Source of the DNA: Effrenium voratum
Lineage: Eukaryota; Sar; Dinophyceae; Suessiales; Symbiodiniaceae
Length of the DNA stretch: 64,000 nucleotides
Direction of reading: 5' to 3'
Assembly (NCBI GenBank): GCA_963377175.1
Contig: CAUJNA010003024.1
Span: forward strand, 307,001-371,000
This document shows, one piece after another, positions 800 through 46,030 of the stretch. Numbering within the stretch: position 1 is the stretch's first letter; each line of letters opens with the position of its first letter. The position numbers were made by a program, and so were the translations under genes. Under the pieces are notes generated by a model. The model saw only the letters and a list, made by a program, of their open reading frames with translations, did no database searches and had not been told where the DNA came from.

Positions 800-976
800 G
801 TGGGTGCGAATCTGTGTTGAAGCGGGTAGTGATTTAGTGTGCTGCTGTTTCGTTCTGCAGGGTGGGATATGTTTGTTGTAGGGTGTGGGCATGCTTGTAA
901 GTAAAACTGCGCTGGGTGTTTTTTGTTGCTAACTGCCCTTTCCGCAGATTTGTTGAAGCGAAACTAAAGGAGATCA

Positions 977-2209
977 ATGGATTTTGTTAACAGCGAGGGC
1001 CTAAATTCCGGACAACACGAGGCGAGCGCGTCGACCACGCAACCCGCACCCGAATGCAGCGGACCCACTCTGCTGCAAAGCATGAAGCAAGGAACAGCCG
1101 CAGCGCAAGAGAAGACGGTCGAGGGGTACGAGGCTGCAAAGGAGCAAGTCAAGGCTGTCGCCCAGGACACATCTTCCTCCAGTCAACCTTCCACAATGGA
1201 CAAGATGAAGCAGGGAGCTGCCGCAGCGCAAGAGAAGACAGTCGAAGGGTATGAGGCTGCAAAAGAGCAAGTCAAGGCTGCCACCCAGGACACGTCTTCC
1301 CCCGGTGAACCTTCCACGGTGGACAAGATGAAGCAGGGAGCTGCCGCAGCACAAGAGAAGACGGTGGAGGGGTACGAGGCTGCAAAGGAGCAAGTCAAGG
1401 CTGCCACCCAGGACACACCTTCCTCCAGTCAACCTTCCACAATGGACAAGATGAAGCAGGGAGCTGCCACAGCGCAAGAGAAGACAGTCGAGGGGTATGA
1501 GGCTGCAAAGGAGCAAGTCAAGGCTGCCACCCAGGACACGTCTTCCCCCGGTGAATCTTCCACGATGCACGAGATGAAGCAGGGAGCTGCCGCAGCGCAA
1601 GAGAAGACAGTTGAGGGGTATGAGGCTGCAAAGGCTGCAGTCGAAAAGCCGTCTTCCGACGGTGGCCCCTCCATCAAGGATCGGATGAAGGAGGGAGCTG
1701 CCGCAGCGCAACAGAAGACGGTTGAGGGGTATGAGGCTGCAAAGACTGCAGTCGAAAAGCCGTCTTCCGATGGTGGCCCCTCCATCAAGGATAGGATGAA
1801 GCAGGGAGCTGCTTGGGCACAAGAGAAGACGGTGCATGGCTACGAGGCTGCAAAGGCTGCTGTAGAGGAGCCGTCTTCCGATGGTGGCCCCTCCATCAAG
1901 GATCGGATGAAGCAGGGAGTTGCCGCAGCGCAAGAGAAGACGGTGCATGGATACGAGGCTGCCAAGGAGAAGGTGAAGGCAGCCACGCAATCATCGTCCA
2001 CCAGCGCTCCCCAGGCTTTATCCGGGTTGTCGGGTGTGTTTTTGTTGCTTGTTTCAACCCAAAAAAAAGGGTCCCACAAAAAGAGATGCCTCAAGGTGGA
2101 TCTGTGCTGTTTTGTATGTCAAGTTTGGAGGGGCATACCCGATTGCCCACAACTGTTATGTTTTCTCTTGGTGGCTCCCAGCCATCCCCAAAACTTTTCA
2201 GCTTTTTAG
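977..2209 (+). CDS. LEA-like repeat protein (hydrophilic, amphipathic-helix repeats)
   Basis: The ORF has 410 codons. Residues 36 to about 350 are eight tandem repeats: four of 41 residues (core MKQGAAAAQEKTVEGYEAAK plus EQVKAATQDTSS-type linker) and four with a shorter 37-residue linker (AAVEKPSSDGGPSIKDR). The Ala/Lys/Glu/Gln-rich helical repeats with charged spacing resemble group 3 LEA proteins, which protect cells in drought, salt or cold. The family call rests on composition and periodicity, not on a conserved catalytic motif. No signal peptide or membrane segment is evident at residue 1. After about residue 350 the composition changes (GVFLLLVSTQKKG), and from 2172 the frame lies in a dispersed repeat, so the real end or an intron donor is probably near 2020-2040. 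An in-frame TAA at 965 supports a start at 977 unless a spliced upstream exon is used. Confidence 0.7.
   Translation: MDFVNSEGLNSGQHEASASTTQPAPECSGPTLLQSMKQGTAAAQEKTVEGYEAAKEQVKAVAQDTSSSSQPSTMDKMKQGAAAAQEKTVEGYEAAKEQVKAATQDTSSPGEPSTVDKMKQGAAAAQEKTVEGYEAAKEQVKAATQDTPSSSQPSTMDKMKQGAATAQEKTVEGYEAAKEQVKAATQDTSSPGESSTMHEMKQGAAAAQEKTVEGYEAAKAAVEKPSSDGGPSIKDRMKEGAAAAQQKTVEGYEAAKTAVEKPSSDGGPSIKDRMKQGAAWAQEKTVHGYEAAKAAVEEPSSDGGPSIKDRMKQGVAAAQEKTVHGYEAAKEKVKAATQSSSTSAPQALSGLSGVFLLLVSTQKKGSHKKRCLKVDLCCFVCQVWRGIPDCPQLLCFLLVAPSHPQNFSAF
1082..2020 (+). repeat. In-frame coding tandem repeat, 123-bp then 111-bp units
   Basis: Eight units begin at codons 36, 77, 118, 159, 200, 237, 274 and 311 of the ORF. 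The first four have a 41-codon period, the last four 37 codons. The last two carry KTVHGYE instead of KTVEGYE. Differences are mostly in the linker, so the array seems to have grown by two rounds of local duplication while selection kept the helix core. Confidence 0.85.
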
Positions 2210-2279: not shown

Positions 2280-3010
2280 AGCCTTGATTTTCCGGACCCT
2301 GAACCAGCCGCCAGGCTTCATCTTCCGGCAGCTTTTGGGAGCAGCTAACTTCCGGCTGCGCTGGGTGTCGGCAACCCACAGACTCGAACGAGGAGCGTGT
2401 GGTCGCGTAAGCCACAAAGGTCGCCTGGCTATGTGCAGTTCCCGTCTTCTTCCTTTTTTTCCGCGCAGGAACTTGGGGCAAGAACCTCCCGCGGACACAC
2501 GGGTTTGTCTGAAAATTAAGAGAACGCATGTTTCCTTTGGCCTCCTTTTGGGACCAAAACAAAAAGGGTGTCATCAACAAAAAGATACCCCCATATATTG
2601 GTAGAAGTTTTTCATGCGTAGTACTTGCTGGGTCCCACTGTTGGTGGCATGTGTTTGCTACGATTGGTTGTTTGTCTCTCTCGAGCACTGGTCATCTACC
2701 TGTCATTTGGGAGGGTCAGGGGGTACTCACCGGCACTTGTTTTCTCTTGTCCTTTTGGGGGAACTAGTAATGTTAAGTTGCTTGGCGGGCTGTTTCACTT
2801 ATTTCGGGGAAAGTAGAATAAAAGAAGTGTTTTCAACCTCTGCGATTGGGCCTGCGACATGTCATGGAGGGCCACGGAATTGTGAAAAGCACTTCGGGGC
2901 CTCCAGCAACAGGTCAGACCTTTTGCGCATTGTCATGACAGCACGCAGCGCAGTGATGGGATCACATGGGATTTCCGGAAACATGATCCAAGGCAGACAT
3001 TGCAAGCTGT
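2280..3010. other. No recognised gene
   Basis: Several overlapping ORFs (up to 136 codons) lack coding character in either strand. Nothing else was recognised. Confidence 0.4.
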
Positions 3011-3014
3011 TTTG

Positions 3015-3114
3015 AGTTGTTCAGTGGCTCCCTTTTTCCTTTTTCTGGTGGCTGCCCCACTAAAATGGTCTTCCCAAAAAGGGTTCCCGTTTTTTCCAGG
3101 GTCACTGAACAACT
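3015..3114. repeat. MITE-like element with AGTTGTTCAGTG termini (copy 1)
   Basis: The 100-bp element starts AGTTGTTCAGTGGCTCCCT and ends AGGGTCACTGAACAACT, a near-perfect terminal inverted repeat. The interior (CTGCCCCACTAAAATGGTCTTCC) recurs in the copy at 59,582-59,670. Confidence 0.75.
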
Positions 3115-3235
3115 GAGGGTTTGCACTCGGAAAATACTTGACATAGCCCGCTGGCATGGCACAGCACCGTGGCATGACACAGGACACGTGGCGCATGACC
3201 CCAGCGAGGGAGGCCAAGTGACCAGATTTCTCGGC

Positions 3236-3495
3236 ACGCCAATTCCAAGTTACGCCAAGTTTCGCCAAGTTTCGCAAGAAGTCAATTTTCACTGGTGCAG
3301 AACACTTGTTTTGCGCCAGAATCGCAACGAAAAACACTTGTTTCCCGAGAACAAAAACACAAGAAACACACGTTTTCCTTTGTTCGGAGCGCGCATTACG
3401 CCACGTCACGGCAAGTTTCGCCAAGCCACGCCAATTAAGTTACGCAAAGTTTCGCCGAGTGTCGCCAAGTTCCGCCGAGTTATGCCAAATTCCGA
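3236..3495 (-). repeat. Degenerate CTTGGCGTAAC tandem repeat, locus 1
   Basis: Repeats of TTACGCCAAG / TTTCGCCAAG at about 10-11 bp spacing, interrupted at 3290-3400. The reverse complement is CTTGGCGTAAC, the same unit as at 25,427-25,935 and 36,355-36,435. Confidence 0.7.
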
Positions 3496-3694
3496 CAAGG
3501 GAGCCCACATCTGATGAGCTTCCGGACCAATCGGAGGTTGACGCTAGCGGTGGGGAGCAGTTGCAAGTGGAGTTTTTTTCGGGGTACGCGCCGACAATCT
3601 GACAAACAAAAACGAGGGAAGGAATCCGTGGAAAATTGCTTTCGGTGAGCACCTCCCTTTCTCCCGCGCGTGCTCGTGTTTGCTTGGAAAATGC

Positions 3695-3775
3695 TTTTCT
3701 CAGTTGTTCAAAGCCGACCTTTTGACCTTTTGGTTTTCCATATTTTTCCATATTTAGTCATGGCTCAGGGGTAGG
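3695..3775. repeat. Partial copy of the TCAGTTG...CTTTTGACCTTTTGG element
   Basis: CTCAGTTGTTCAAAGCCGACC followed by TTTTGACCTTTTGGTTT and TTTAGTCATGGC matches the left part of the element at 57,261-57,377. It lies just before the LINE coding region. Confidence 0.55.
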
Positions 3776-3794
3776 CCAAGAACGGAGCTATGGC

Positions 3795-5066
3795 ATGTCG
3801 CCTTTTTCCGTATCACCCAATCAACTTGGCCAGACACACAACACACTGAGAGCCAGCCGGGGTCCCAAGTCCCCGGGTCACTGCAGACTTACTTGTGTGA
3901 TAGCCGCATTTTGTAGCTTTGCAGTGGCAGGTGTGAGGGTGGCGGGTCACACCATGCAGCCCGCCGGAGTCCCACATGAACAGTCAATCCCTTTTTGGCA
4001 ACCAGGGACAAAGCATCATGGTTTTTCCGAAGACAGCCGATCGCAACACCATGTGTCACACACCTTGGTTCACAAAAGAGCCTTTCGTCGGGCAAGACGA
4101 CGAGCAGAACAAAAAGGCGGCACCCTATACAGAGGAAGGTGGTACACAGCGCACCAACTTGGAACTCAGCATACCCAGTTTCAGGCAAGTCAGACCGAAT
4201 CGCACTCTCGAGCGGGCCAGCATGGTTCCTTGCGACCTGCGTCACGCCTGAAAGTTGTGACCTGGAACAGTGGGGGATTGCAAGGTTACCGGTATGATGA
4301 GTTTCGTGTTTGGCTAGAGAAGTCGCAGGCAGCTGCTGACCTAGATGTCATCTGTGTGCAAGAAACACACTGGAAAGGGTCTTTCGAGTGGACGGAGCAG
4401 GCGTGGTCCGCAATCCACAGCGGCGCCGGCCAACCACGCACAGGGGGCATCCTGATCCTTATCTCTCCTAGAGTGGCGGCGCGGTGTCAAATCAAATATG
4501 ATGAAATCTTTCCAGGGAGGTTGCTTCATGTTAAGCTTTGTGCGGACCCCTCTGTTGACTTGCTCTGCGTGTATCAGCATACTTGGGGTTTCCATGCAGG
4601 GCCAAACCGTGCTGCAACAGCTGCGGGCGAAACGGCGCTTGACATACTCTTGTCAAGACGGCGAGCAGTGTGGAACAAGATGAGAGCCTGGCTTCATAAC
4701 GTGCCAGCCCGAAACCTTCTGGTGATGCTAGGGGACTTCAACACACCTTGCTGCCCCGACTCAGGCCACGTGGGCATGGGTGTGCCGCGCCGTGCCAGCA
4801 AGCGCCAGCCACAGGACACAGCAGAGTTTGCGCAGATAGTCTCCGACTTTGACTTGTGTGCCTTGAACACGTGGGGCAAAGCAGGCATTCATGCACGCAC
4901 ATACATACCATACAGTCTTGATGCCAGCAAACCGTGCGGCACGCAGATTGACTTTGTGTGCACGAGACGGAGTCAAGAAGGCGCACACACTTCCAACTTT
5001 CCCTCTGCTAAGCGGGGCCTACTTTCAACACTTGCCGGTGCAATGTGTGTTAAAGTGGCCCTCTAA
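3795..5066 (+). CDS. LINE ORF part 1: AP-type endonuclease (EEP superfamily)
   Basis: This domain nicks target DNA to prime reverse transcription. Residues 1-150 are a Gln/His/Arg-rich leader without a clear domain. The EEP fold follows: LKVVTWNSGGL (about residue 152, metal-binding Asn), QETHW (about 189, catalytic Glu), GDFNTP (313-318, Asp and Asn) and QIDFV (Asp 386). The closing SDH-type motif is missing in this frame. Its counterpart, FQHLPV, is found in the RT frame at about 5,020-5,040, so the frame breaks between the two and the last 30 or so residues of this ORF are out of frame. In that motif the Asp of the usual SDHLPV is replaced by Gln while the His remains. The start at 3795 is simply the first ATG. 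Confidence 0.8.
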   Translation: MSPFSVSPNQLGQTHNTLRASRGPKSPGHCRLTCVIAAFCSFAVAGVRVAGHTMQPAGVPHEQSIPFWQPGTKHHGFSEDSRSQHHVSHTLVHKRAFRRARRRAEQKGGTLYRGRWYTAHQLGTQHTQFQASQTESHSRAGQHGSLRPASRLKVVTWNSGGLQGYRYDEFRVWLEKSQAAADLDVICVQETHWKGSFEWTEQAWSAIHSGAGQPRTGGILILISPRVAARCQIKYDEIFPGRLLHVKLCADPSVDLLCVYQHTWGFHAGPNRAATAAGETALDILLSRRRAVWNKMRAWLHNVPARNLLVMLGDFNTPCCPDSGHVGMGVPRRASKRQPQDTAEFAQIVSDFDLCALNTWGKAGIHARTYIPYSLDASKPCGTQIDFVCTRRSQEGAHTSNFPSAKRGLLSTLAGAMCVKVAL

Positions 5067-7320
5067 GCCCAAGAAAAGCGCCAGTGCCATTGAGATTCAG
5101 AGAGCACGATTCGCGCCTACTGCGATACAGGTAGAACAAGCCTTCCAGCAGAACACCGGACTCCAAGCAGAGCTGCAGCATGCGGTCAGGCAGGAACTCC
5201 TTGTGCTCGGTCCAGGTTGCCCGGACCAAGTCAACCAAGCGCTGTGCAAGGCCTGGCAACGAGTGGCGCCGCATGAAGAAATCCGGCGCCCAGCAAAAGC
5301 CTGGCAGGATCCCCGGTTGCAGGGTCGGATTGCGCAGATGTGGCAAGCACGCCGTGCTGCGCTTGCGCCCGCGGCTGTGACGCAAAGTTGCATACTCAGG
5401 AAATGGCAGGCGTGGACACGCTATCAGCACTTGAAAACACAACTTCGGAAGCACAGTGACGACAAGCGCCGCGAGCTTTTTGACAGTCTTCTGTCGCAAG
5501 CAGAGGCAGCCGTGGGAAAAGGCATGCTGACGAAGGTTTTCCAGGTTGTTCGGCGCCTAATGCCTAAAACCTCCAAGCGATGCATCCAACTGCGAGGCCA
5601 GCAAGGGCAACTCATGCTCCCAGAGGCAGAAACCCAAATCATGAAAGAATATTTTTCTGTCTTGTACTGCTCATCCGAGGTGCCTCCTGCCAGCATTGAG
5701 CTTTCGCAGTCCGTGTGCTTCACACAGGAAGAGTTTTGCAACGCGTTGAGCCACATCCAAGCCACTAAGGCAGTGCCACCAGCCTACGCGCCTGCAAAGA
5801 TCTGGAAACTGTGCAGTCAGGAGCTTGGGCAGTACTATGCTCATTCCATTGCAGGCCGGCTTGGGCCTGGCCGTGTCACCTTGCCAGAGAGTTGGAACAG
5901 AGCACACATTTGCCTCTTGCCAAAACCGGGCAAGGCCATTCGCTCTCCAGGTGACCTTCGGCCCATCAGTCTGCTAGACCCTATGGGAAAGGCCTTTGCT
6001 GGAATGATTGCAGGACGGGTTCGCAACCAAGTGCAAGATTACCTCGCACAGACCCCGCAATTTGCCTACCTTGCCAGGCGCAGTGCCTACGACGCGTTGG
6101 ATCGCGTGTTCTCACACTGTGCCAAAATCCGCTCCCTGGTTGCATCTCAAGTGAGAACTGTGCACGACAAGCGGAACGGAGTCCAGGCGCGAGACTGCGT
6201 TGGCGGCGTGCAACTCAGCTTGGATTTAACAAAAGCTTTTGACAGGCTCCCCCGAACCACGCTACATCAGGCGCTCCTTCGGGCGGGTGTCCCGGACGAC
6301 ATTGCAGCCTTGATAATCACAATGCATCATCAAGTTCAGTTGCATATCCGGCATGGAGGCCGGTCTGTCACGGTCAACACGGGGAGAGGTGTCAGACAGG
6401 GCTGCAAACTTGCTCCGATGTTGTGGGCAGCGTTCACAGGTTTGTTGTTTGAAGATCTGCAGACAAAACTTGACGCCACATGGGTCCGCAATATGTGTAC
6501 AGCTTACGCTGATGATTTCCATGCTGCTTGGGAAATACAGTCTGAAGCAGACTTTGTAGCTGCCCGCACTTCGCTTCAGGTTTTCATGAGTACCCTCACC
6601 AACCTTGGGATGGAAGTCAACCAGCGCAAGTCAGCTGTGATCATTGAGCTTCGGGGAAGGCGCTCCAGGAAAGTGCTTCGGGAACATAGTGTCAATTTGC
6701 ACGACCTTGGCAGCTGTTTACACATCGAAGGGAAAGCCAATAACACGCTCCCCATTCGTAAATCGCACGTGTACCTTGGCACTGTCATTTCATATGGAGC
6801 ATTTGAAACAGCAACCCTTCAACATAGGTGCAAGGCTGCCTGGTCGGCGTTTGGACGGCTCAATCGCGCCCTCAGGTCCAAAAACGCACTCGCCCTTCGG
6901 ACTAGAATCAGGCTGTGGAATGCTTGTGTCTTTAGTGCTGCCAAGTACGGACTCGGTAGTTCGGGGTTACCTGTGAGGGGGCTTGCCACGATTACCGGCT
7001 TAGCAATGCGTCAAATCCGAATTGTTGCGCGAAGCCCGGCCCATGTAACCCATGAGACTAATGAAGCTTTGCTGGACAGACTAGGAATCCAACACCCCTT
7101 GCAAACGCTGGAGCGCGAAGCGCGACAGAGGATTCAACTTGGGCGGCAGAACCAGAGGCTCTTAGCAATTCAGCCTGACAGAGTTACTGCATGGTGGGAT
7201 TTAGTTCTTGGCACATTCCAAAGGCCAGAGCAAACAGATTCTCCAAAGCACGGCAACTCTGCAAAACTAGTTGAGATAGGTCATCTAGCCACTGCGCAGC
7301 AACACCCGTGCCCCGAGTGA
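4891..7320 (+). CDS. LINE ORF part 2: reverse transcriptase
   Basis: Copies element RNA into DNA at the nicked target. Real coding probably begins near 4,980, after the frame break, with the end of the endonuclease domain (FQHLPV). RT motifs follow in order: ICLLPKPGK with LRPISLLD (fingers), GVQLSLDLTKAFDRL (first catalytic Asp), GVRQGCKLAPMLW (motif B-like), TAYADDFHAAW (catalytic YADD at 6,505-6,516), VNQRKSAVI, and VYLGTVIS (thumb entry). A long C-terminal part (LWNACVFSAAKYGL and following) is typical of LINE RTs. No RNase H domain or CCHC knuckle was seen. All RT core motifs look intact, so the enzyme could be active. The ORF ends TGA 7,318-7,320, and ATG 7,322 opens the next ORF. Confidence 0.9.
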   Translation: MHAHTYHTVLMPANRAARRLTLCARDGVKKAHTLPTFPLLSGAYFQHLPVQCVLKWPSKPKKSASAIEIQRARFAPTAIQVEQAFQQNTGLQAELQHAVRQELLVLGPGCPDQVNQALCKAWQRVAPHEEIRRPAKAWQDPRLQGRIAQMWQARRAALAPAAVTQSCILRKWQAWTRYQHLKTQLRKHSDDKRRELFDSLLSQAEAAVGKGMLTKVFQVVRRLMPKTSKRCIQLRGQQGQLMLPEAETQIMKEYFSVLYCSSEVPPASIELSQSVCFTQEEFCNALSHIQATKAVPPAYAPAKIWKLCSQELGQYYAHSIAGRLGPGRVTLPESWNRAHICLLPKPGKAIRSPGDLRPISLLDPMGKAFAGMIAGRVRNQVQDYLAQTPQFAYLARRSAYDALDRVFSHCAKIRSLVASQVRTVHDKRNGVQARDCVGGVQLSLDLTKAFDRLPRTTLHQALLRAGVPDDIAALIITMHHQVQLHIRHGGRSVTVNTGRGVRQGCKLAPMLWAAFTGLLFEDLQTKLDATWVRNMCTAYADDFHAAWEIQSEADFVAARTSLQVFMSTLTNLGMEVNQRKSAVIIELRGRRSRKVLREHSVNLHDLGSCLHIEGKANNTLPIRKSHVYLGTVISYGAFETATLQHRCKAAWSAFGRLNRALRSKNALALRTRIRLWNACVFSAAKYGLGSSGLPVRGLATITGLAMRQIRIVARSPAHVTHETNEALLDRLGIQHPLQTLEREARQRIQLGRQNQRLLAIQPDRVTAWWDLVLGTFQRPEQTDSPKHGNSAKLVEIGHLATAQQHPCPE

Positions 7321-7321
7321 G

Positions 7322-8638
7322 ATGGCAACTGTCAGGAAACGGTACCCCATGGAGCACTCAGTGGACGGAATGCCCACTTGCAGGCATTGCCAGAAAAGTT
7401 TTGCCGGCTGGCCGCAGTTTGCGCAACACATTTGGCGTCGGACCTGCCACATGCAGCCGCAGGGTCAACCCAATGTAAGTAGCCGCATGACTGGAGGGCC
7501 CTTGCCCCCAGCGCGTGATCCCCGCATCAAGCAGTTGTTGCAACAGGATGGTTGGAGAGGTCTCGCTGCTGACCCCAGCTTCCAAAAGCAAATGCTACAC
7601 CACTGCCCAATCTGTTTGCAATGGGTTGCATCCAGTCCTTACATTAAGGCGCATCTGACACGCAAGCACCCGGAACATGCCGAGGCACTCAAAGCCACCC
7701 AACAGACCTGCCGGCAGTTTGGCTCAGAAATCCGACAACCGTGTTCTTGGTGTAACACAGCCTACAAGTGCAGGCCAGCCAGACACCTTGTGCAGTGCGT
7801 TGTGCTGTTTACGAGCCGGTTGCTTGCTGCAATCCTGAACTCGCCGACACCAGCGGTGGGTTGCGCCAGCGCAGGTGATCATGATGAATGTGGACCCAGC
7901 GACAGAGGAGATGCAGCTCTTCAGCCACTTGCTGCCCAGCCTGCGGGTAATGGAAGCGGTGCCGACAGGGGAAACCCCCAGCAAATGGCCCAAGACAGGG
8001 GAACACACCAACAAAGGCAAGGGCAAGCGCCAGGGTCGCGACATGGCCGCGACATCAGACAATGGTGCAGGCCACAGTCAGCAACGCAAAGGCCGACAGG
8101 CCACAGAGCAGACAAACGGCGAGCTTCGGGAAGTGTGCAAAAGCCTAGCACGCCTGGCTCTAAGACACGAGGACGCACTCGCAGTGTACCGGCAGGACAC
8201 AGGTTTCGTACTCTTCCTGAAGACGGCGCCGCCCACCACCGTTCTCCCAACCATATGGGACGTGTCTCAGGCTTGGAAGAAGCAAAAGCAAGCCGACCCC
8301 GCGAAACTCTCCCAACCGCTCAGGGTGATTCTGCTCCAATGCCTCTTCACAGAAATGCTCAACCGCAAAGTGAAACTGATGCAGGCCCAGGACTCCATGA
8401 ACTCGGCCAGACAGCTTCAATGGATAGACGAACAACAGAATTGGCATTACATGGCATGGGACAGCCAGAGCAAGCAACACACCACAACAGACAAGCCAGC
8501 GTTGTCCGATGCTCAAGTAGAGCAGATCCTGAAAAGGCTGATCCAGTTGCTTGTTGTGCCTGGATTAGTGCTACGCTTTCATGCCACGCGGCCGCTGGCG
8601 GCGGAGTTTCACAGCGAAACAGTAGCTCTTGGAGGTGA
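7322..8638 (+). CDS. LINE ORF part 3: three C2H2/C2HC zinc fingers
   Basis: ATG 7,322 lies one base after the RT stop (TGA-G-ATG), a spacing that would suit reinitiation. Finger 1 is CRHC with His and Cys 12 and 18 residues on (C2HC). Finger 2 is CPIC-x12-H-x4-H, a textbook C2H2 finger. Finger 3 is CSWC-x10-H-x3-C. These probably bind element RNA or DNA. Convincing coding ends around 7,870; the remaining roughly 250 codons in this frame are a shadow of the USP ORF in another frame. The native product is therefore likely zinc fingers plus USP in one protein, interrupted by a frame change between 7,839 and about 7,900. Confidence 0.75.
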   Translation: MATVRKRYPMEHSVDGMPTCRHCQKSFAGWPQFAQHIWRRTCHMQPQGQPNVSSRMTGGPLPPARDPRIKQLLQQDGWRGLAADPSFQKQMLHHCPICLQWVASSPYIKAHLTRKHPEHAEALKATQQTCRQFGSEIRQPCSWCNTAYKCRPARHLVQCVVLFTSRLLAAILNSPTPAVGCASAGDHDECGPSDRGDAALQPLAAQPAGNGSGADRGNPQQMAQDRGTHQQRQGQAPGSRHGRDIRQWCRPQSATQRPTGHRADKRRASGSVQKPSTPGSKTRGRTRSVPAGHRFRTLPEDGAAHHRSPNHMGRVSGLEEAKASRPRETLPTAQGDSAPMPLHRNAQPQSETDAGPGLHELGQTASMDRRTTELALHGMGQPEQATHHNRQASVVRCSSRADPEKADPVACCAWISATLSCHAAAGGGVSQRNSSSWR

Positions 8639-9584
8639 GCTTGCGAGTGGAAGCAGCGCACGAAGCGCACAGGCTGCTTGCGCAACTGAGTGGAAGCGCC
8701 GTGCTCCACCTTGTCGGAGCATCTCTTCGGCAGGAGCGGTTGCAGAGATCCCCGCTTGCGCAGCAGATTGCTGGAATCGTCGACAGGCTGTGCTCAGCTT
8801 AGCTCTTCGAAACACCTCCAATCATTGTTACGCAAACGCCACAGTGTATGCTCTTGCTTGGTCAGCCCTTGCTCGTGACACGCTGCAGGTGATGCTTGCG
8901 GGCAATCTCCGCTCTTGTGTTGTCAAGGCCTTGAGTTGCCAACAACCTGTCACTTTGTGGCAGATGGTCCCTTGGCAAATGACAGTGCTTGGCTGGCAGG
9001 CTCCACACATACAACATGATGTGGCGGAGTTTCTGAGCTTTCTCCAGGCGCGGACTCATCTCCCGTGCATGCAGGGCAAATGGGAAGCTCGGTTGGGGGT
9101 TGATAACGAGGCAGTCGTGCAGGACTCGGGACAGGTTGCGCCACTTTTTCTTCCCGCAGAGTTGGTACCAGAGCAAGAAGCCACGTTGCAGAGTTTGATC
9201 AACGAATGGAGCGCCCAGGTGTACACTCATGCCCTGACAGAGCCGCCAGATCTTCTCGTGCTGCAGCTGAACCGCTTTCAGCCGCGTGGTGGGGAGGTGC
9301 ATAAGAGCTTGACTCCTGTAAAACTCACTTCTTTTGTTGCACTTCCTTGCTTTGATTCTGACTCTTTGAACACTCAGACGGTGCAGTACCAAATGCAAGC
9401 TTGCACCTTTCACCTGGGTCCCTCGCCAGACGCGGGGCATTATCGCACCGTGCTTTTTCAACACGGCTCCCTACCTTTTGTCACTGACGACGGTGAAACA
9501 CCCAGTGCCTTGCCAGCCTTGCGTGGAGAGGATGCCCCGGACATTGAGAACAACAGCTATCTTGTGTATTTCACCAGGGCGTAA
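7875..9584 (+). CDS. LINE ORF part 4: ubiquitin-specific protease (USP, peptidase C19)
   Basis: Predicted to remove ubiquitin from proteins. The frame is open from 7,839 (TGA at 7,836-7,838). 7,875 is a GTG, so the true entry is probably by frame change from the zinc-finger ORF. Counting from 7,875, residues 1-300 are a Lys/Gln-rich linker. The Cys box NTSNHCYANATVYAL has the nucleophile Cys at 8,826-8,828 (residue 318). QHDVAEFLSFL matches the QDAHEF box. PPDLLVLQLNRF precedes the His box. DAGHYRTVLF carries the catalytic His at 9,438-9,440 (residue 522). Then come TDDGETPSAL (likely third catalytic residue) and SYLVYFTR (YLLFY-like end). The domain is about 260 residues, short for USPs, and no CxxC zinc pairs are seen in the fingers region. 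A USP inside a LINE is unusual. Confidence 0.85.
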   Translation: MIMMNVDPATEEMQLFSHLLPSLRVMEAVPTGETPSKWPKTGEHTNKGKGKRQGRDMAATSDNGAGHSQQRKGRQATEQTNGELREVCKSLARLALRHEDALAVYRQDTGFVLFLKTAPPTTVLPTIWDVSQAWKKQKQADPAKLSQPLRVILLQCLFTEMLNRKVKLMQAQDSMNSARQLQWIDEQQNWHYMAWDSQSKQHTTTDKPALSDAQVEQILKRLIQLLVVPGLVLRFHATRPLAAEFHSETVALGGELASGSSARSAQAACATEWKRRAPPCRSISSAGAVAEIPACAADCWNRRQAVLSLALRNTSNHCYANATVYALAWSALARDTLQVMLAGNLRSCVVKALSCQQPVTLWQMVPWQMTVLGWQAPHIQHDVAEFLSFLQARTHLPCMQGKWEARLGVDNEAVVQDSGQVAPLFLPAELVPEQEATLQSLINEWSAQVYTHALTEPPDLLVLQLNRFQPRGGEVHKSLTPVKLTSFVALPCFDSDSLNTQTVQYQMQACTFHLGPSPDAGHYRTVLFQHGSLPFVTDDGETPSALPALRGEDAPDIENNSYLVYFTRA

Positions 9585-12055
9585 CGTGACTTAGGTCTCA
9601 TTTGGCTTGTTCTGCAGTTCTTTGCCTGTTTGACTATGTTTCCAACACCCGCAAAACCTGCAAGGCCTTGCTTAGGCAATGGTGCGGTGTCATTGCGCTG
9701 AGCAATCTGGGTCGCAGCCTAGGGACCAATGTGTCTGCATCACGTGGACCACTTCGGATTGAAGCTTTTTCTGGCATTCAATGTGCGCGCACAACTTGTG
9801 TTAGTTTCGGCCTTGTCGATGCCTGCCTAGCTTTCACGGAACACTCAGTGGGGTGTCGCAGTCCGTGTATACACACGTGACTGTTTGTTTGGGTGAGTTC
9901 CTCGCACAGCTTGTTCTGCGCAGGGCAACAGTTTTGATCGTAGGGCTTGGGCCATCTCAAGTCACAGTTCCTCGTTTGTTCTCTGACTCTGTCGTCTACC
10001 AGGCGGGGCAGTCCTGCTTGGACATTCGTGTCGGGGACTGCGTTGGCTCTGAACCAGGGAGTGTGTGTACTACAGCCATAGAAATTGGCCGGGCCGAAGG
10101 CTTGCTCCAAGAATTTCGCTAGACGAAGTGGACTTCGTCGCGCTGGAAAGTGAAAAGTGAAAGTGGGCAACTGAGTTTTCCATCTGTTGTGCAAGGCAAG
10201 AAGTGTTGGGCATCTTGGGGCCAATACGTATCTGAAAACACTGGGTCACCCAAAACACAAAGCCTCAAGCAACTTAACAACTAGTATGTTGTTTTTTTAG
10301 TGTGGCTGTAAGAACTTATGACCGTTTGTGTGGCACCTGCTATTTGTTTGTGTTGGCTGTGTTGGTTCTGTTCATGTTCAGCTTTGTGGTCTCAAGTTCC
10401 CCAACGGATTCTTCAAGGTTGGCAATGCACCCTTCATGATCCAAACAGAACGAATGTGTGCATCAGGTGGTCATTGGGTGCCAGACTACCTAAATAGAAT
10501 CATATGTATTTGTTTGGGACCACCCTAAAGGACGGCGTTGTTTTATGGCCACTGCACAAGTCAGGCAGATCTTGGGGGATGGCAAGCAGAGTTTTGAACA
10601 TCCACGCTTGCTTCATCGGCGAGCGCTTTTCTTGAGGTGGCACCTTTGGACGCACGTGGAAAAACAGCCTGAATCGTTTGTTGCATATCAACTGGGCTTG
10701 CTTGTTCATTGCATGCCTGCTGACAAGCTCTTCACATGTTCGAGCGTGCCACCAGGCTATGATTTGCAAAGTTTCCCAAGTTTGGGCCCGCATGTCTGCG
10801 ACATCAGACACGGGGGAGCTCCAATTAGCACTGTACATTGCACAGCCTTAGAATTTGTGCACTTGTTTGTCCATTTGTATGATGGGCAGAAGCGTGTCAG
10901 AAGCATACGCCATATGCGGAACAGAGTGCGCCAGGTGTTGCCAGAAACAAATAGGGCGGCGCCGTCACCACGTTACCAAAGGAACACAGAGCAGAATAGA
11001 TGAGGACAAGCCATGATGACAATGAGAAGACAAAGAACGGCAATCAAGGAATGAAGAAGAGCAAGTCAGGCAATGCCTTGCTGAGCAGGGTCATTGTTGC
11101 CCGTCTCGCTTGACGAAGCACCAAGACGTTCATTTCTCTCAGGAATCCTTGGGTATTTGAACGGTGTTTGTTTTTTTGGAAGCAACCTTGGATATTGGAG
11201 GAATACTGAGATACCCTTTTTCCACTCTGAAAGCAAGCTTGTCTTAAAATTGGGATGTGACCCCCCTCCCTGGTGGTGTTCCTTTGGTTGCCCTTTAAAC
11301 CAACCGGAAAAGAACGAAAAGGATAACGTTGCCCTTTAAAGCATGCCCTCAAACAAAGCAAACATTACACCCAAGTTGCCGTGCTTTTTCCAAAAGGAAC
11401 GTCGTCTCCGAGGCCCGGTTCCCTTTGATTGGAGGCGCAGCTTTTCGGTGTGTAAGCCTACCCTAAACCAAAAACCAAAAGACAACGGAAAGTTGGGATA
11501 TGAGGCATTTGAACCCATCTCGCACTGCCCCAACTTCTGTGCTCCAGGTTGAACATGAGAAGGCTTGTTCGTAATTAGGAGGTACTGAAGATGCAACTTC
11601 GAGTTGTATAAAAGACCTGTGGGAGTTGTTGTTTTTTGGTTGGGCGGGAAGACCCACAAAAGATGCTTGTTGCGTTGGTTTCCCCTTTAAAAACACCAAA
11701 AGAGTACCCTCAAAAAAAGATGGACACGTGTGACATGTTCATTTGTTGCTATGAAGTTTCAAAAGGGAACCTTCAAATTTGTTGCCAATGATGCCCGGCC
11801 GTGTCCGCCATTGAAGTTTCAAAAAGCAACACTTGACATGGGAGTTGCTCATGGCGTTTTAGGGGATCCCCATTTTGAGAAACACCCCACATGTTTTTCA
11901 AGAAATGGATCTATGTGAGAAGAACCGACACGGACGGAGTGCGTTTGTTTGTGTCCGGAATTCGGCGTCACGTGGCGTTGTGGTGCCTCCTACCAATCTT
12001 CAGAATGCAGAGAGGCCTGCTGACGGGCATGTGTCAAAATAGGGGGCAAGCAAAA
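9585..12055. other. No recognised gene downstream of the LINE
   Basis: The first part may be the LINE 3' UTR, though no A-rich tail was found. The longest open frame, 10,545-11,003 (+, 152 codons), has no recognised motif. Fragments such as GGTTGCCCTTTAAACCAACC (about 11,287) belong to dispersed repeats also seen near 12,180, 14,680 and 37,130. Confidence 0.4.
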
Positions 12056-16707: not shown

Positions 16708-16798
16708 CCTGGAGTCTCCATGACCCTTAAAAAATGGGTCCATGACCCCATTATTTTAAGCAATGACCCCATGTTTTAAGGGTCATGGAGACTCTAGG
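16708..16798. repeat. Fold-back element, family 1 (copy b)
   Basis: Left CCTGGAGTCTCCATGACCC, right GGGTCATGGAGACTCTAGG. The inner arms ATGGGTCCATGACCCCAT and AATGACCCCATG also pair. 91 bp; both arms CATGACCC type. Confidence 0.85.
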
Positions 16799-39978: not shown

Positions 39979-42900
39979 GCCTGAGTTCCTGTGAGGAACT
40001 CAACCGCCAGCGACCAAATATTGTACATCCCACTTCTGGCCCGGAGCTCGGTATGGCCAGGTCCCTGCACCAGGAGTCAATAGACTCCTTGAACAAGCAC
40101 TGGCAGAGCGCCCGTGAGCGGGTGCCGCAACTGGGCGTAGCCAAAGTCGGCCAGCCGGCACACTGCCGCGGCCCAGGCTGGGCGAAAGATGAGAAGGTTG
40201 GCGGGCTTTAAATCACGATGGAGCTGGCCGTGCTGATGTAGCCACTCCAATCCTTGCAAACAGTCCAGCAGCAGCCGCATGCTCGTGTCCAAGGGCACGA
40301 TGCCATCGTGCCGATCATACAAGGGTATGTGTTTTTTTGACGTGGCCGTGCCGGGAGGTTGGCATAAGGGGTATGAATCGCAGGTATGGTTCGAAGTATG
40401 GCTCGGGGGTATGATTTGGGGTATGGCTCACGCGCCTCTGAACTCTTGCTTTGTGGCTTTGGACACACTCTGCGTGAGTGGGTCAGCGAAGAAGGCGAAC
40501 GTCATGGCCACTTCCACTTGGAGTTCAAGCGACCCGCGTGCTCACAGACCCAAGCAAGCGTTGCTTAAGGGGAAGCGCCGCTGCCCAGTCAGGCCCGCCA
40601 CCAGCACCAGTCACGAACTAGCGTAAGGGCAAGACAGCGTGACATCCTCAAACGGCAGCCGCGCAGAGGCTAGTGGGCCTCTCACAGGTGGTGTACCGTG
40701 TCGCGCTTGATACATTGCAGTAAGCCTTATTCCGAACCCACCTTCTGGCGAACTTCTGCGAAAAGAGCCGCGAGCTGGTTCCTGCAGTGCTTCTCTTTGA
40801 GTTTTGTGTCTTGTGCGGATTTGGGCGGCATAGCTTCGCTAGTACTGCCCAGAGCGCAAGAGGCTCTTGGCTGCAAATGGCAGCAGAAGGGTATGAATCG
40901 GGGTATGAATCGGGTATGAATCGGGGGTATCAATCGGGGGACAGATTTTTTTCGACCGGAAAGACACCAAGAATGCCCCAGGAGCACAAAGACAGCTTGT
41001 GTTTCACCGCGACAGTGGCCCAGGACAGACAGCTGTTTCCACCGCGTCGGACAGACTGCAGGAAGCGAGCTCCAAGTTTCAAGCTCAGCAGCGGCACCCC
41101 CCGCCACAGCGCCCTGCAAGTCCCAGCGTCTTACGTCAAGCTGCACCCCCCCCCGCCACAGCACCACGGATGCTACAAACAACTCTAGTACCAGGACATC
41201 CGCAGGATTGCTCTATAACTCCATCCATTGGCACTTTCCATTGAAAATAGCAAGCCGAGACCGAGGTGGGTAACCGAGTGTCAAGGAACACCACTTACCA
41301 AAATGGCCCCCCACGAGTAACCAGCGAGTGTGTGAGTGGACATGTCAACTGTACTTGGCCCCATGACATCAGAGCCCAACCATGCAAGCGTCGCAGACTC
41401 AAGAATAGATCCAGTGAACCAGGTATTCCCTCGGAGTCCCTACCCCCTGGCATCGGTCCACATGTCAAGCTCTCTAACACTGTATCTTGACAAGACCCCC
41501 TTCTTCACTTGAAGTTAAACCCCCTATAGCTTCCAGCTATTATGGATCACATGCACATGCCACAGTTCTTGCAAGTTTGTTCCCGAAAGCATGGCGAAGG
41601 GTTCTTCCGCTGGGTTCACTTGAGTTGTTCTCATGAGAGTCATTACAAGGTGTCATTGCAAGGAATCATCATCATGAAAGTCAATGCAAGGAGTCATTGC
41701 AAGGAGTCATTGCAAGGAGTCATTGCAAGGAGTCATTGCAAGGAGTCATTGCAAGGAGTCATTGCAAGGAGTCATTGCAAGGAGTCATTGCAAGGAGTCA
41801 TTGCAAGGAGTCATTGCAAGGAGTCATTGCAAGGAGTCATTGCAAGGAGTCATTGCAAGGAGTCATTGCAAGGAGTCATTGCAAGGAGTCATTGCAAGGA
41901 GTCATTGCAAGGAGTCATTGCGAGCTGCGCATGGAGTCAAGTGCAAGCAAGTTGCAAGTGCAAGGAGTCAGGTGCAAGTTGCAAGTGCATGGAGTCAAGT
42001 GCAAGTTGCAAGTGCAAGGAGTCAAGTGCAAGTTGCAAGTGCAAGGAGTCAAGTGCAATTGACTTGCGAGGAGTTAAAATCTCTTCTTAGGGCGGCGGGG
42101 TAGTGCCGACGACACTACACGAAAATCGACCCTCTGCGGGGATCGGCGTGGTCGAGGTGCAAAAACCCATGGTTTTTTGCGATTTCTAAAGTTCCCGCGC
42201 GACCCTCTGCGGGGATCGGCGTGGTCGAGGTGCAAAAACCCATGGTTTTTTGCGATTTCTAAAGTTCCCGCGCGACCCTCTGCGGGGATCGGCGTGGTCG
42301 AGGTGCAAAAACCCATGGTTTTTTGCGATTTCTGCGGTGCCCGCGCAACCCTCTGCGGGGATCGGCGTGGTCGAGGTGCAAAAACTCGAGGTTTTTTTGC
42401 GATTTCTGCGGTGCTCGCGCAGCCCTCTGCGGGAATCGGCGTGGTCGAGGTGCAAAAACTCGAGGTTTTTTGCGACTTTTGTTGTTCGAACTGGTCCTCG
42501 GGAGTTGTCTCGTGGTTCGCGCGCCTGCTCCCTGCTCCCGGAACCGGCGGGTCGCGGGTTCGATTCCTCCCTGGTCCGCGGGCGGGCGTCGCAAGATTCA
42601 ACTTGCATTTTAAAGCAACTTGCACAGAGCAACTTGCGCAGACCAACTTGCGCCGACCAGTTTGCGCAGAGCGCCTTGCCTAGAGCAACTTGCGCAGAGC
42701 AACTTACGCAGAGCAACTTGCACAGAGCAACCTGCACAGAGCAGCTTGCACAGAGCAACTTGCAGGGAGCGCAATTTGCACAGAGCAACTTGCAGGGAGC
42801 CACTTGCAGGGACCAACTTGCCGGAGCAACTTGCGCGGAGCAACTCGCGCAGAGCAACTTGCGCAGTGCAACTTGCGTAGAGCAACTTGCGCAGACCAAC

Positions 42901-44402
42901 TTGCACCAACCAGTTTGCGCAGAGCACCTTGCCTGGTGCTGTCTCGCGCTTTGCTTCACAAATGCTTCGTGGAGGGAGAAAGAACGCATCCTGCAGCGTT
43001 GGGCCGACCTCGCTTGCGATGTTATGCTTTCGGGCCAACCGTGGTCTAGCTTTTGTGTTTTTAAGGGGTATGACTCGGGGTATGGCTCGGGGGTATGGTT
43101 CGGGGTATGATTCGGGGGTATGGCTCGCCCAAGCCCCACCTCCCACGAAGACTAAAGAAGTGACACGGTAAAAAAAACACAGACCCACAAGTCTGCGAGG
43201 CCTAGGCTTGTGCTCCCAACCTTCCAACCCCAGGGAAAGAGCGCTGGCAGAAGCGCCAGAAATATGAGCAACGGCAAAAACTTCCTTCCTCCACCACAGA
43301 CTATCGTTCCTAAATCGTTGACACGTGCTGTTAGTCTCAGCGCAGTGTAATGTGTGACGAAGCACTCTTTGCGGCTCCGGCTCGATGTACTAACTAAAAG
43401 CGTAATGCGCCATGTGACCTTCTGCTGCAGCTCCAGCTCGAAACTGGCAACTTTCGCAACTTTGTAGCAAGAGAAGCGCATGACACTTCCGCAGCCAAGC
43501 TCGAACGACGGACCTTTCCAGAGCAGGAGTAGCACGCGAGGCCCACTTCCGCTGCTCCAGCTCGAAGCTCGCAACTTTGCGACACCGGTGTCACACGCGC
43601 AGCGCCCTTCCCCGCAGCTCCAGCTTGGAAATCGCAGCGAAGTACAAACCCTGAAGGAGCTCCAACTCGAAAACCGCGACTTTGCAATAAAAGACTCGGA
43701 CGCGAGGCACGCTTCTGCGGCCGTCACCCGTGAAGTACACTTCCGTTGCTCCAGCCCGAAAATCTCACGTTTGCCAGCTCCAAATCGGAAATCACAACTT
43801 GTGGCACGTGCGTAGGTGCCTTTCTTTTTGACCCTATCGTTAAAGATTGAAGCGCAAGTAGAATGGTCCAAGGCAGGGCGTGTCTCTGCCTCTGACTACG
43901 CAGACTTAGTGCGAAGCTCGAGAGAAAAAAACATACAACGCTTTGCTACGCAGGGCGCCCATTCTCAAAAACTTGCTCACCATGCAAGGTGCTCTCGTCT
44001 GCCAGCGGCAATACAACTCGGTTTGTGCAACAGCAGATGCCAGAGAGCACCTTCTCGTGCGGCCGCTCTGCGCTCCAGGCCAGAAATTGCATCTCACCAT
44101 CGTCCTGACAAGTTTGCGAACTGTCTGATTCGTGGCAAGTCACACGCTCGAATCTTCCCTGAAAGCGACAAGGCTTGGTCATGTTCTTTCAGACTTGGGC
44201 ATCTGCCAGACTAGCGTCGCTCCCCCCCCCCGGCTATCTCGGCCTGGAGCGCCGCTTTGTCTATCTCCTTGCACGCCACCAGAGAGTTGGCCTGGCGGTC
44301 GAAGGCCTTGTAGACCTTGCCGAAGGTGCCCGTTCCCAACCTAAATCGCCGGGATTGGGGCTGGGGCCACTGCGCGTGCCAAGCCCTAAAGTTCAATCTC
44401 AA
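39439..44402 (-). CDS. Protein kinase gene (Ser/Thr type), multi-exon, possibly broken
   Basis: Minus-strand blocks hold the kinase motifs in the right order: glycine loop and catalytic Lys (44,402-44,230), then HRDLKPAN and DFG (40,325-40,077), an [11 protein letters not shown] region (40,060-39,990) and subdomain XI (39,978-39,850). Substrate: protein Ser/Thr by the HRDLKPAN loop. The alpha-C Glu and hinge exons were not found between 44.2 and 40.3 kb; that interval is filled by tandem arrays. The block from DFG to subdomain XI changes frame twice within about 200 bp and the APE motif reads ELRA, so the gene may have tiny introns or be a pseudogene. The tail after the domain is Pro/Gln/Cys-rich. 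Confidence 0.7.
39990..40070 (-). CDS. Kinase subdomain VIII-IX
   Basis: [20 protein letters not shown] with FLTG: ELRA in place of the APE and NIWSLA in place of DxWSxG. Both are recognisable but substituted. The frame differs from the neighbours on each side. Confidence 0.55.
40077..40325 (-). CDS. Kinase catalytic loop exon (HRD and DFG)
   Basis: Reads [45 protein letters not shown] and [17 protein letters not shown] lies at 40,212-40,220 and DFG at 40,140-40,148. [11 protein letters not shown] is typical of Ser/Thr kinases. Catalytic Asp, Lys and Asn are intact. Confidence 0.85.
40370..40440 (-). repeat. GGGGTATG(A/G)NTCG repeat, locus 1
   Basis: About five units of 12-14 bp: GGGGTATGAATCG, AGGTATGGTTCG, AGTATGGCTCG, GGGTATGATTTG. 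Same unit at 40,888-40,945 and 43,067-43,125. Confidence 0.8.
40888..40945 (-). repeat. GGGGTATGAATCG repeat, locus 2
   Basis: Four units including GGGGTATGAATC and GGGGGTATCAATC. Confidence 0.8.
41250..41680. other. No recognised gene
   Basis: Short frames only, between the GGGGTATG repeats and the 13-bp array; probably intronic for the minus-strand kinase. Confidence 0.35.
41682..41921 (+). repeat. 13-bp tandem array (GTCATTGCAAGGA)
   Basis: About 18 near-perfect copies. Since 13 is not a multiple of 3, all three plus-strand frames give the same 13-residue repeat, [13 protein letters not shown], only shifted. The resulting ORFs (139-182 codons) are artefacts of the repeat unless shown otherwise. 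Confidence 0.97.
41938..42060 (+). repeat. 27-bp tandem array (GTGCAAGTTGCAAGTGCA...)
   Basis: Four to five units of GTGCAAGTTGCAAGTGCAAG followed by GAGTCAA. The GCAAGGAGTCA part is shared with the 13-bp array, so one may have seeded the other. Confidence 0.9.
42128..42485 (+). repeat. 73-bp tandem array, five copies
   Basis: Units start at 42,128, 42,201, 42,274, 42,347 and 42,420: CCTCTGCGGGGATCGGCGTG, GTCGAGGTGCAAAAAC, TTTTTTGCGATTTCT. The last two differ in the middle (CTCGAGG for CCATGG). Confidence 0.95.
42545..42580 (+). other. tRNA B-box-like sequence (weak)
   Basis: GCGGGTTCGATTCCTCC looks like a Pol III B box. No matching acceptor stem or good A box at the right distance was found, so this is not called a tRNA; it could be a trace of a tRNA-derived SINE. 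Confidence 0.2.
42605..42935 (+). repeat. 14-bp tandem array (AGCAACTTGCGCAG)
   Basis: About 23 imperfect units: AGCAACTTGCGCAG, AGCAACTTGCACAG, ACCAACTTGCGC. The word CAACTTGCA is shared with the 27-bp array. ORFs on both strands are artefacts of the 14-bp period. Confidence 0.95.
43067..43125 (-). repeat. GGGGTATGACTCG repeat, locus 3
   Basis: Five units such as GGGGTATGACTCG, GGTATGGCTCGG, GGGTATGATTCG. Confidence 0.8.
43425..43800 (+). repeat. Degenerate 60-65 bp tandem repeat (GCTCCAGCTCGAAA)
   Basis: Six to seven units with CTCCAGCTCGAAA, TCGCAACTTTGC, and CACTTCCGC. The minus-strand ORF across it (43,152-43,871, 239 codons) is Ser/Cys-rich and repetitive ([17 protein letters not shown]) and is probably not a gene. 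Confidence 0.8.
44230..44402 (-). CDS. Kinase N-lobe exon (glycine loop and catalytic Lys)
   Basis: Reads [51 protein letters not shown] (44,310-44,340) is a complete G-x-G-x-x-G-x-V loop; ACKEI (about 44,270) holds the ATP-binding Lys. The start at 44,402 is not an ATG in a secure context; the upstream end is probably an acceptor. Confidence 0.8.
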
Positions 44403-44844: not shown

Positions 44845-45731
44845 TCAAAACACTGTAGCCTGTTGATGGAAAACCACGACTTGTACTTGGCGCGAAGAGC
44901 AGATTCGCAAGGAAGATGTGAGAGCTTCTTGTAGCTGCAGCAAGGCGGTAGGGCCAGGGCTGACAGCCCCGCTTAAGCTGCGATGCGACGCGGTACGATA
45001 CGATGCGATGCGATGCTCGACGACACTAAGAGCCGTGCACAGGCGCCAAGTCTCGTCAATCTCGTCTTGGCTGGCGCTCTGATTCCGTAGGGTCGTCTCC
45101 AGGCGCTGCAAGGTGGTAAATGACATGGACTCCGCAGCCATGTACTTCCAGACGTCGCGCATTTTGGGCGCCCAGAACTTGTCCACGAACGGGTGGCGCA
45201 GAGCATCAACAAACATGTTCTTGCCATCCTTTGGGTTCAGAGTGAGCAGGGCCTGAGACTGCTGGGGGGAAGCTGGTCCTTCTTGAACAACTTCCACGGC
45301 GGCGATGGCGCTGCGCCACCCCTCCAAGGCTGCTGGGCCCAGCGATTGAGTCGCGTCACCGTGCGTCATCTCCTGGGACAAGAGGTTGTAGAGCTTGATG
45401 ATGGAGGCTTGATCCTTCGTGGCCATGAAGTGGGCCAGGGCGTCCTTGACAAGTAGGTTGCTGGCGTGCTCCGCTTTCTCATCCAGCGAGCTGTTGGTCA
45501 AGGTAGACAGCGTAGGCCGGAAGGTGTCGAACTCTGTGCCCACCACTCCCCGAACCGCGAACGGGTATGCCACCTTAAACAGGGACTCCACGTCCTGCAG
45601 CTCCAGCAAGGCTCGGCGGCGAACCAGACCAAGGCAGGTAATGGAGGGCAGCTGCGGAAGCATTGGAGAGGCCAGAAGAACGGACAAATTGTCCTGAAGG
45701 TCCGACTCTTTCAGCCGAGCCAAGTCCGTGC
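44845..45731 (-). CDS. Helical protein exon, unknown (gene B)
   Basis: From a possible acceptor at 45,732 the frame reads TDLARLKESDLQDNLSVLLA, SPMLPQLPSITCLGLVRRRA, KAEHASNLLVKDALAHFMAT, and FVDALRHPFVDKFWAPKMRD. Clear coding character, predicted mainly helical, no family recognised. Near the 3' end a GATGC-type pentamer repeat (44,990-45,015) may mark the start of noncoding sequence; the stop is at 44,845. Confidence 0.6.
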
Positions 45732-45739
45732 CTTCTGTG

Positions 45740-46030
45740 ATAGAGCGCCGTCTTCACATTCTCGCACTGTCCAAGCAAGGTTGTCGATGGTGCCGCAGCT
45801 TGCGGGCCCATCCTGGCTTTTTGACCTCACCCGCTTTGCTCTCTGCCGCTTGGAGAAAATCAGCTGTGGACTGAAGATCAGCTGCGGGCTCAGCCGGACG
45901 AGCAGGCTCGGTGATAGACCTTGGAGCCTCTGAGAACGTGCCCCCAGTCTGGCCCAGTCGTCCCAGGCCATGAAGGCTTGCGGGCGGAGCGTCAAGTTCC
46001 CGACTGACAGGGGTGGTTTGGGAGTTTGGG
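45740..46030 (-). CDS. Gene B exon
   Basis: CCCTGTCAG| precedes RELDAPPASLHGLGRLGQTG, GTFSEAPRSITEPARPAEPA, ADFLQAAESKAGEVKKPGWA. Pro/Ala-rich and hydrophilic. A frame change of about 36 nt of possible intron (GTGCGAG to CAGAAG) separates it from the next exon. Confidence 0.5.

Follow-up and report, generated by a model that had tools for sequence, protein, structure and literature searches.

The plus strand of the window, the 64,000-nucleotide stretch of Effrenium voratum DNA analysed here, carries an APE endonuclease (EN), a LINE reverse transcriptase (RT), C2H2/C2HC zinc fingers and a USP (peptidase C19) domain between positions 3726 and 9584, as seen in the list of open reading frames and by Pfam (Table 1). 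The endonuclease domain is preceded by a basic KRAFRRARxRA..YRG stretch, which by eye is also present in the related proteins P0006 and P0013, and the top PDB match of the RT is LINE-1 ORF2p (2.1e-7). An APE-like endonuclease domain combined with a LINE-type reverse transcriptase identifies the element as an APE-type LINE. It has no long terminal repeats as judged by exact words only: the longest one common to positions 2401-3800 and 9584-11200 is 10 nt. The same two stretches contain no target-site duplication longer than 10 nt.

Table 1 Features of the element in the window. Frame numbers of window ORFs are positions modulo 3.
Feature	Position	Strand	Frame and evidence
EN ORF	3726-5066	+	Frame 0; tblastn match to P0004, P0006
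Exo_endo_phos domain	~4257-4970	+	Inside ORF 3726-5066; Pfam 9e-11, above cut-off
EN-to-RT frameshift, 0 to 1	~4960-4970	+	tblastn: P0004, P0005 in frame +3 up to 4967-4970; P0006 in frame +1 from 4963
RT ORF	4867-7320	+	Frame 1; YADD
RVT_1 domain	~5920-6645	+	Inside ORF 4867-7320; Pfam 2.8e-20
Finger ORF	7289-8638	+	Frame 2; Pfam zf-met 3.5e-4 (exactly its cut-off)
Finger 1 remnant	7309-7320	+	Stop TGA 7318-7320, then deletion of ~60-80 nt
Finger 2, C2HC	7370-7447	+	Frame 2
Finger 3, C2H2	7604-7669	+	Frame 2
Finger 4, C2HC	7742-7798	+	Frame 2
ORF2 spacer, finger 4 to USP	7799-8798	+	Frame 2 until ~8632, frame 0 beyond
ORF3	7881-8802	+	Frame 0 from ATG 7881 to ~8632, frame 1 to stop TAG 8800-8802
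Indel, ORF2 frame 2 to 0, ORF3 frame 0 to 1	~8625-8640	+	tblastn: P0005 in frame +3 up to 8630, frame +1 from 8686
USP domain	8799-9584	+	Frame 0; stop at 9582-9584
USP catalytic codons	Cys 8826-8828, His 9438-9440, Asp 9489-9491	+	

An earlier note, made from the letters alone, had listed EN, RT, finger and USP motifs within a single 5.8-kb interval. All of them are found there on the plus strand, and Pfam agrees. Its one-strand layout does not extend to a single reading frame: the EN lies in frame 0, the RT in frame 1, the fingers in frame 2 and the USP again in frame 0. ORF 7839-9584, in which Pfam detects the USP signature (UCH) at 1.4e-10, might be taken for a single finger-to-USP protein. 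We rejected this reading because the first part of the ORF, from ATG 7881 to ~8632, is a separate frame, ORF3, homologous to the USP-less proteins P0002, P0009 and P0017. Only the part beyond ~8632 shares its frame with the USP end. The frame of ORF2 itself is stop-free, in frame 2 over 7289-8635 and in frame 0 over 8640-9581.

The frame changes point to a decayed copy. The change of frame between EN and RT at about 4965 looks like a lesion of the window copy, and so does the TGA in finger 1. The three fingers counted in the earlier note are confirmed by pattern, compared with four each in P0010, P0011 and P0013 and also four, the last one by eye, in P0006. The first cysteines of fingers 1 and 2 are separated by 70 nt (~23 codons) in the window, compared with 43-49 codons in eight relatives; this shortened spacing indicates a loss of ~60-80 nt, which took most of finger 1 with it. 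A single indel near 8632 accounts for ORF3 moving from frame 0 to 1 exactly where ORF2 passes from frame 2 to frame 0. Unless they are assembly errors, three lesions leave the window copy dead: the EN/RT frameshift, the stop that accompanies the loss of finger 1, and this indel.

Elsewhere in the window, ORF 968-2206 (+) encodes 413 residues of 111-123-nt tandem repeats (KMKQGAAAAQEKTVEGYEAAKEQVKAATQ). Its best Pfam match, SSSPR-51, is sub-threshold (24.5 versus 27 bits), and its product is, we presume, LEA-like. Six dispersed 60-nt repeats (family D16; at 16741, 37324, 49943, 50217, 51933 and 53507) are 60-77% identical to the reference copy; several end in GGGTCATGGAGACTCTAGGTA, and they are perhaps the ends of a short non-autonomous element. 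Tandem arrays whose units measure 13, 14, 27 and 73 nt are clustered at 41637-43127. ORF 44845-45753 (-), of 302 residues, matched no Pfam family at E up to 0.01. In Rfam, nothing reached the gathering score.

Recurrence of the RT-USP pairing

Protein searches yielded 18 distinct relatives, nine of which contain UCH: P0001, P0003, P0004, P0005, P0006, P0007, P0010, P0011 and P0013. The domain exceeds the Pfam cut-off in all nine, the weakest being P0005 (25.4 versus 23.9 bits), and EN and/or RT lies beside it in eight; P0001 is a USP alone. Three carriers come from Symbiodinium sp. CCMP2592, one from S. microadriaticum and five from ENA entries. We treat the nine as separate loci because their longest contigs all differ in size. 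The EN/RT/USP family thus recurs at ten loci, the window included, which supports the reading in the earlier note of a LINE that carries a USP domain. The fraction of 9/18 is no estimate of prevalence, because the searches used USP-bearing queries and certain protein lengths and scored at most ~8000 candidates. Scans of viral contig and genome contig collections returned no further DNA copies of the element.

The other nine relatives include RT proteins whose models stop at ORF3 or before; the end of one, P0016, by eye resembles a broken Cys box. The S. microadriaticum model P0005 places the USP ahead of ORF3, which may be a variant order, a single model spanning two adjacent copies, or an error in the gene model. 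P0009 consists of two LINE copies in tandem within one gene model, with two finger sets and two ORF3 matches.

Close copies allow the two domains to be compared directly. Between P0003 and P0004, both from CCMP2592, the RT differs at 10 of 618 positions and the USP at 4 of 256 (1.6% each); between P0003 and P0007, from the same strain, the counts are 125/584 and 40/179 (21% and 22%). The earlier note had named an RT-USP adjacency unique to this locus as the outcome that would defeat its reading. Instead the adjacency recurs, and closely related copies show the same divergence in both domains. A LINE that landed by chance next to a host USP pseudogene would suit the broken window copy and the failure to find a target-site duplication. 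To this alternative we give next to no weight: EN and/or RT accompanies UCH in eight other proteins and RT and USP co-diverge, and the recurrence rules it out unless all those gene models are wrong.

Trees of both domains, as proposed in the earlier note, were built. The RT tree has 17 rows, with 8 of 14 inner branches starred and weak deep forks; USP carriers fall into several branches rather than one clade, and P0008, a partial model lacking the USP, sits among them. This scatter may reflect early gain with loss, model truncation or repeated exchange. The USP tree, with one of seven inner branches starred, is too weak for a congruence test against the RT tree. RT and USP distances across six elements correlate weakly, at r 0.30, a value equalled or exceeded in 131 of 720 permutations.

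Conservation, fold and descent of the USP domain

The residues that matter in USP enzymes are a catalytic Cys, His and Asp, and an oxyanion Asn. The Cys is present in all nine aligned rows that extend to it (the Cys box is skipped in the P0007 model), and His and Asp are present in 10 of 10. The Asn occurs in eight of nine rows; P0013 has Gly. Mean pairwise identity is 34.1% for the EN (10 pairs), 33.0% for the RT (21 pairs) and 32.5% for the USP (15 pairs), where the RT mean includes one close pair at 79% and is ~31% without it. The ORF2 spacer, at 26.8% identity with alignment scores near zero (10 pairs), appears unconserved. At the protein level, the USP thus seems to be under constraint similar to that on the RT. 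From the conserved catalytic residues, the similar identities and the match between RT and USP divergence within pairs of close copies, we infer that the USP moves together with the LINE. The earlier note had taken the preserved Cys and His boxes as a sign of selection on activity; the comparison of copies supports this, whereas the broken window copy does not.

A predicted structure of the USP domain matches solved USPs in Foldseek, the best being USP46 (8.3e-12), and a USP fold is therefore indicated by a model of modest confidence (mean pLDDT 65.6) whose Cys-box half is poor, largely below 50. Cellular USPs such as USP46, USP12 and USP21 have this fold and the catalytic residues in common with the LINE domain. 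They differ from it in sequence, with 12-19% identity among the 50 Foldseek matches listed, and the LINE domain is embedded in a retrotransposon polyprotein. Single LINE USPs score 20-146 bits against each other (eight sequences). The best PDB chains reach 17.9 bits with the window ORF and 13.4 bits with the P0010 domain, and 57.5 bits with a profile of six LINE USPs. The LINE USPs are probably one lineage, and they are predicted to cleave ubiquitin.

ORF3, a conserved frame nested between the fingers and the USP

Overlooked in the earlier note, ORF3 occupies the interval between the fingers and the USP. From ATG 7881 on, LINE proteins conserve it whether or not they have the USP, and it matches 12 of the 18 relatives (P0002, P0003, P0004, P0005, P0007, P0008, P0009, P0012, P0015, P0016, P0017 and P0018). 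P0001, P0006, P0010, P0011, P0013 and P0014 give no direct match, and the spacers of P0006, P0010, P0011 and P0013 are at least 300 residues long. A codon-compatibility alignment asked whether ORF3 is present in a different frame of these four spacers, all from ENA polyproteins. In the +1 frame they score 86, 99, 106 and 114, with z values of 6.6-11.8 that are somewhat generous, since they derive from 40 shuffles of the best of seven queries. Frames 0 and +2 of the same spacers reach at most 55 (z up to 5.4), and four control RT stretches read in three frames at most 51 (z up to 4.0). Nesting is least well supported in P0010 (z 6.6 in +1, 5.4 in +2), and P0001, which has a short upstream part, scores 47 (z 2.8). 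When whole proteins were scanned, the best +1 match fell between finger 4 and the USP in all four, as did 19 of 20 query-protein pairs.

The window provides a second line of evidence. Over 250 codons of ORF3, synonymous shuffling left the ORF2 frame open in 7 of 20,000 cases when ORF3's own codons were permuted and in 3 of 20,000 when EN/RT codon usage was applied. The ENA proteins came to light through their long open frames and are thus biased to open spacers; the window was not so chosen, and it is a single case. Together, the alignments and shuffles show ORF3 as a separate, conserved predicted protein in the +1 frame of ORF2, located in the fingers-USP interval with the ORF2 frame open.

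ORF3 and the USP might instead form one ORF, with the USP translated from ORF3 rather than ORF2 and the +1 nesting a by-product. The gene models of P0003 and P0004 do run ORF3 into the USP as one protein. Those models, however, lack other ORF2 pieces seen in relatives, as if spliced to join frames; the +1 arrangement is found in the window and in all four ENA proteins, and the openness of the window is rare under synonymous shuffling. We consider a fused ORF3-USP unlikely and retain ORF3 as a distinct nested frame. How translation would start inside ORF2 we can only guess: ORF3 might use a separate trans-spliced mRNA or internal initiation. No relict matching a spliced-leader pattern was found in the window. 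The predicted ORF3 structure is confident (pLDDT 87.7), and its fold search returned nothing from the PDB at E up to 0.001; Pfam gave nothing better than E 0.046 among 11 members.

Possible roles of a LINE-borne USP domain

The window very probably holds a broken copy of an APE-type LINE family composed of a basic N-terminus, EN, RT, four C2H2/C2HC fingers, an unconserved spacer that overlaps ORF3 in its +1 frame, and a USP. Several points speak against this family reading: the disrupted window copy, the absence of the oxyanion Asn in P0013, the low confidence of the USP model in its Cys-box half, the order in P0005, the ORF3-USP models of P0003 and P0004, the scatter of carriers outside a single clade, the weak correlation of RT and USP distances, and the bias of the ENA proteins to open spacers.

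Given the family, we assign slightly less than an even chance to a protective role in cis, in which the USP, through its cis tether to the RT, would strip ubiquitin from the ORF2 protein or from the RNP that contains it. The de-ubiquitinated complex would then be spared by the proteasome for as long as target-primed reverse transcription requires. The USP could alternatively act at the target, where the removal of ubiquitin from DNA-repair factors or chromatin at the nick would ease target-primed reverse transcription. Its tethering to the fingers, which are putative DNA binders, would suit such a role, and the Ginger paper proposes repair-factor activation for transposon OTU and Ulp1 domains (PMC2836005); we consider this role unlikely. 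We find it quite improbable that the USP fold serves as a polyprotein protease freeing the RT from its tail. The catalytic residues are indeed conserved at the end of a long polyprotein, and an analogous role has been suggested for a viral OTU in polinton pPolB, as cited in PMC12721341, but Pfam reveals no ubiquitin-like domain in the ORF2 proteins scanned. Protection in cis remains our preferred role for the domain.

Known systems offer partial parallels. SymbioLINE-Dnmt elements are Symbiodinium LINEs that captured a DNA methyltransferase, reportedly kept under selection, and they resemble the window family as Symbiodinium LINEs that took up a host-type enzyme domain (PMC5890265). Their methyltransferase lies in an ORF upstream of the RT, whereas the USP lies at the ORF2 end and is accompanied by the nested ORF3. 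No DNA methyltransferase was detected in the scanned ORFs and relatives, a scan in which ORF 968-2206 alone covers the upstream window DNA. The non-LTR elements Utopia and NeSL likewise carry a ubiquitin/SUMO-removing cysteine protease; theirs is an N-terminal Ulp1-like protease combined with a restriction-like endonuclease, in contrast to the USP and APE endonuclease of the window family (PMC4640811). OTU and Ulp1 domains occur in Ginger1, Mutator and Helitron DNA transposons, and Trichomonas XP_001314237.1 is cited as one protein joining a C19 peptidase to transposase_11 (PMC2836005). As in the window family, a deubiquitinase-type domain ends the transposition enzyme in these cases, and the Trichomonas domain is also C19; they are DNA transposases, however, and not LINEs.

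Full-text searches within a library of open-access papers listed no USP-bearing LINE; an earlier description elsewhere, for example in Repbase or in subscription papers, is possible. The word 'ubiquitin' is absent from the main texts of PMC11453091 and PMC8045281, and in the main text of PMC12721341 'deubiquitinase' occurs once, for a viral OTU.

Ubiquitin/SUMO-removing proteases are known from DNA transposons and from a few non-LTR elements with a restriction-like endonuclease. With ORF3 nested in it, this eukaryotic retrotransposon would have a long overlapping gene, in the same phase in five elements (the window and four ENA proteins). It is possible, if somewhat doubtful, that all these traits belong to an old dinoflagellate LINE lineage in which an active cis deubiquitinase ends ORF2 and the spacer is overprinted on the +1 ORF3. 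Such a lineage would obtain two proteins from one stretch of DNA and evade ubiquitin-dependent host control. The retention of a catalytically complete USP in copies with no more than ~30% identity to each other suggests that LINEs face a real barrier in the ubiquitin of these hosts.
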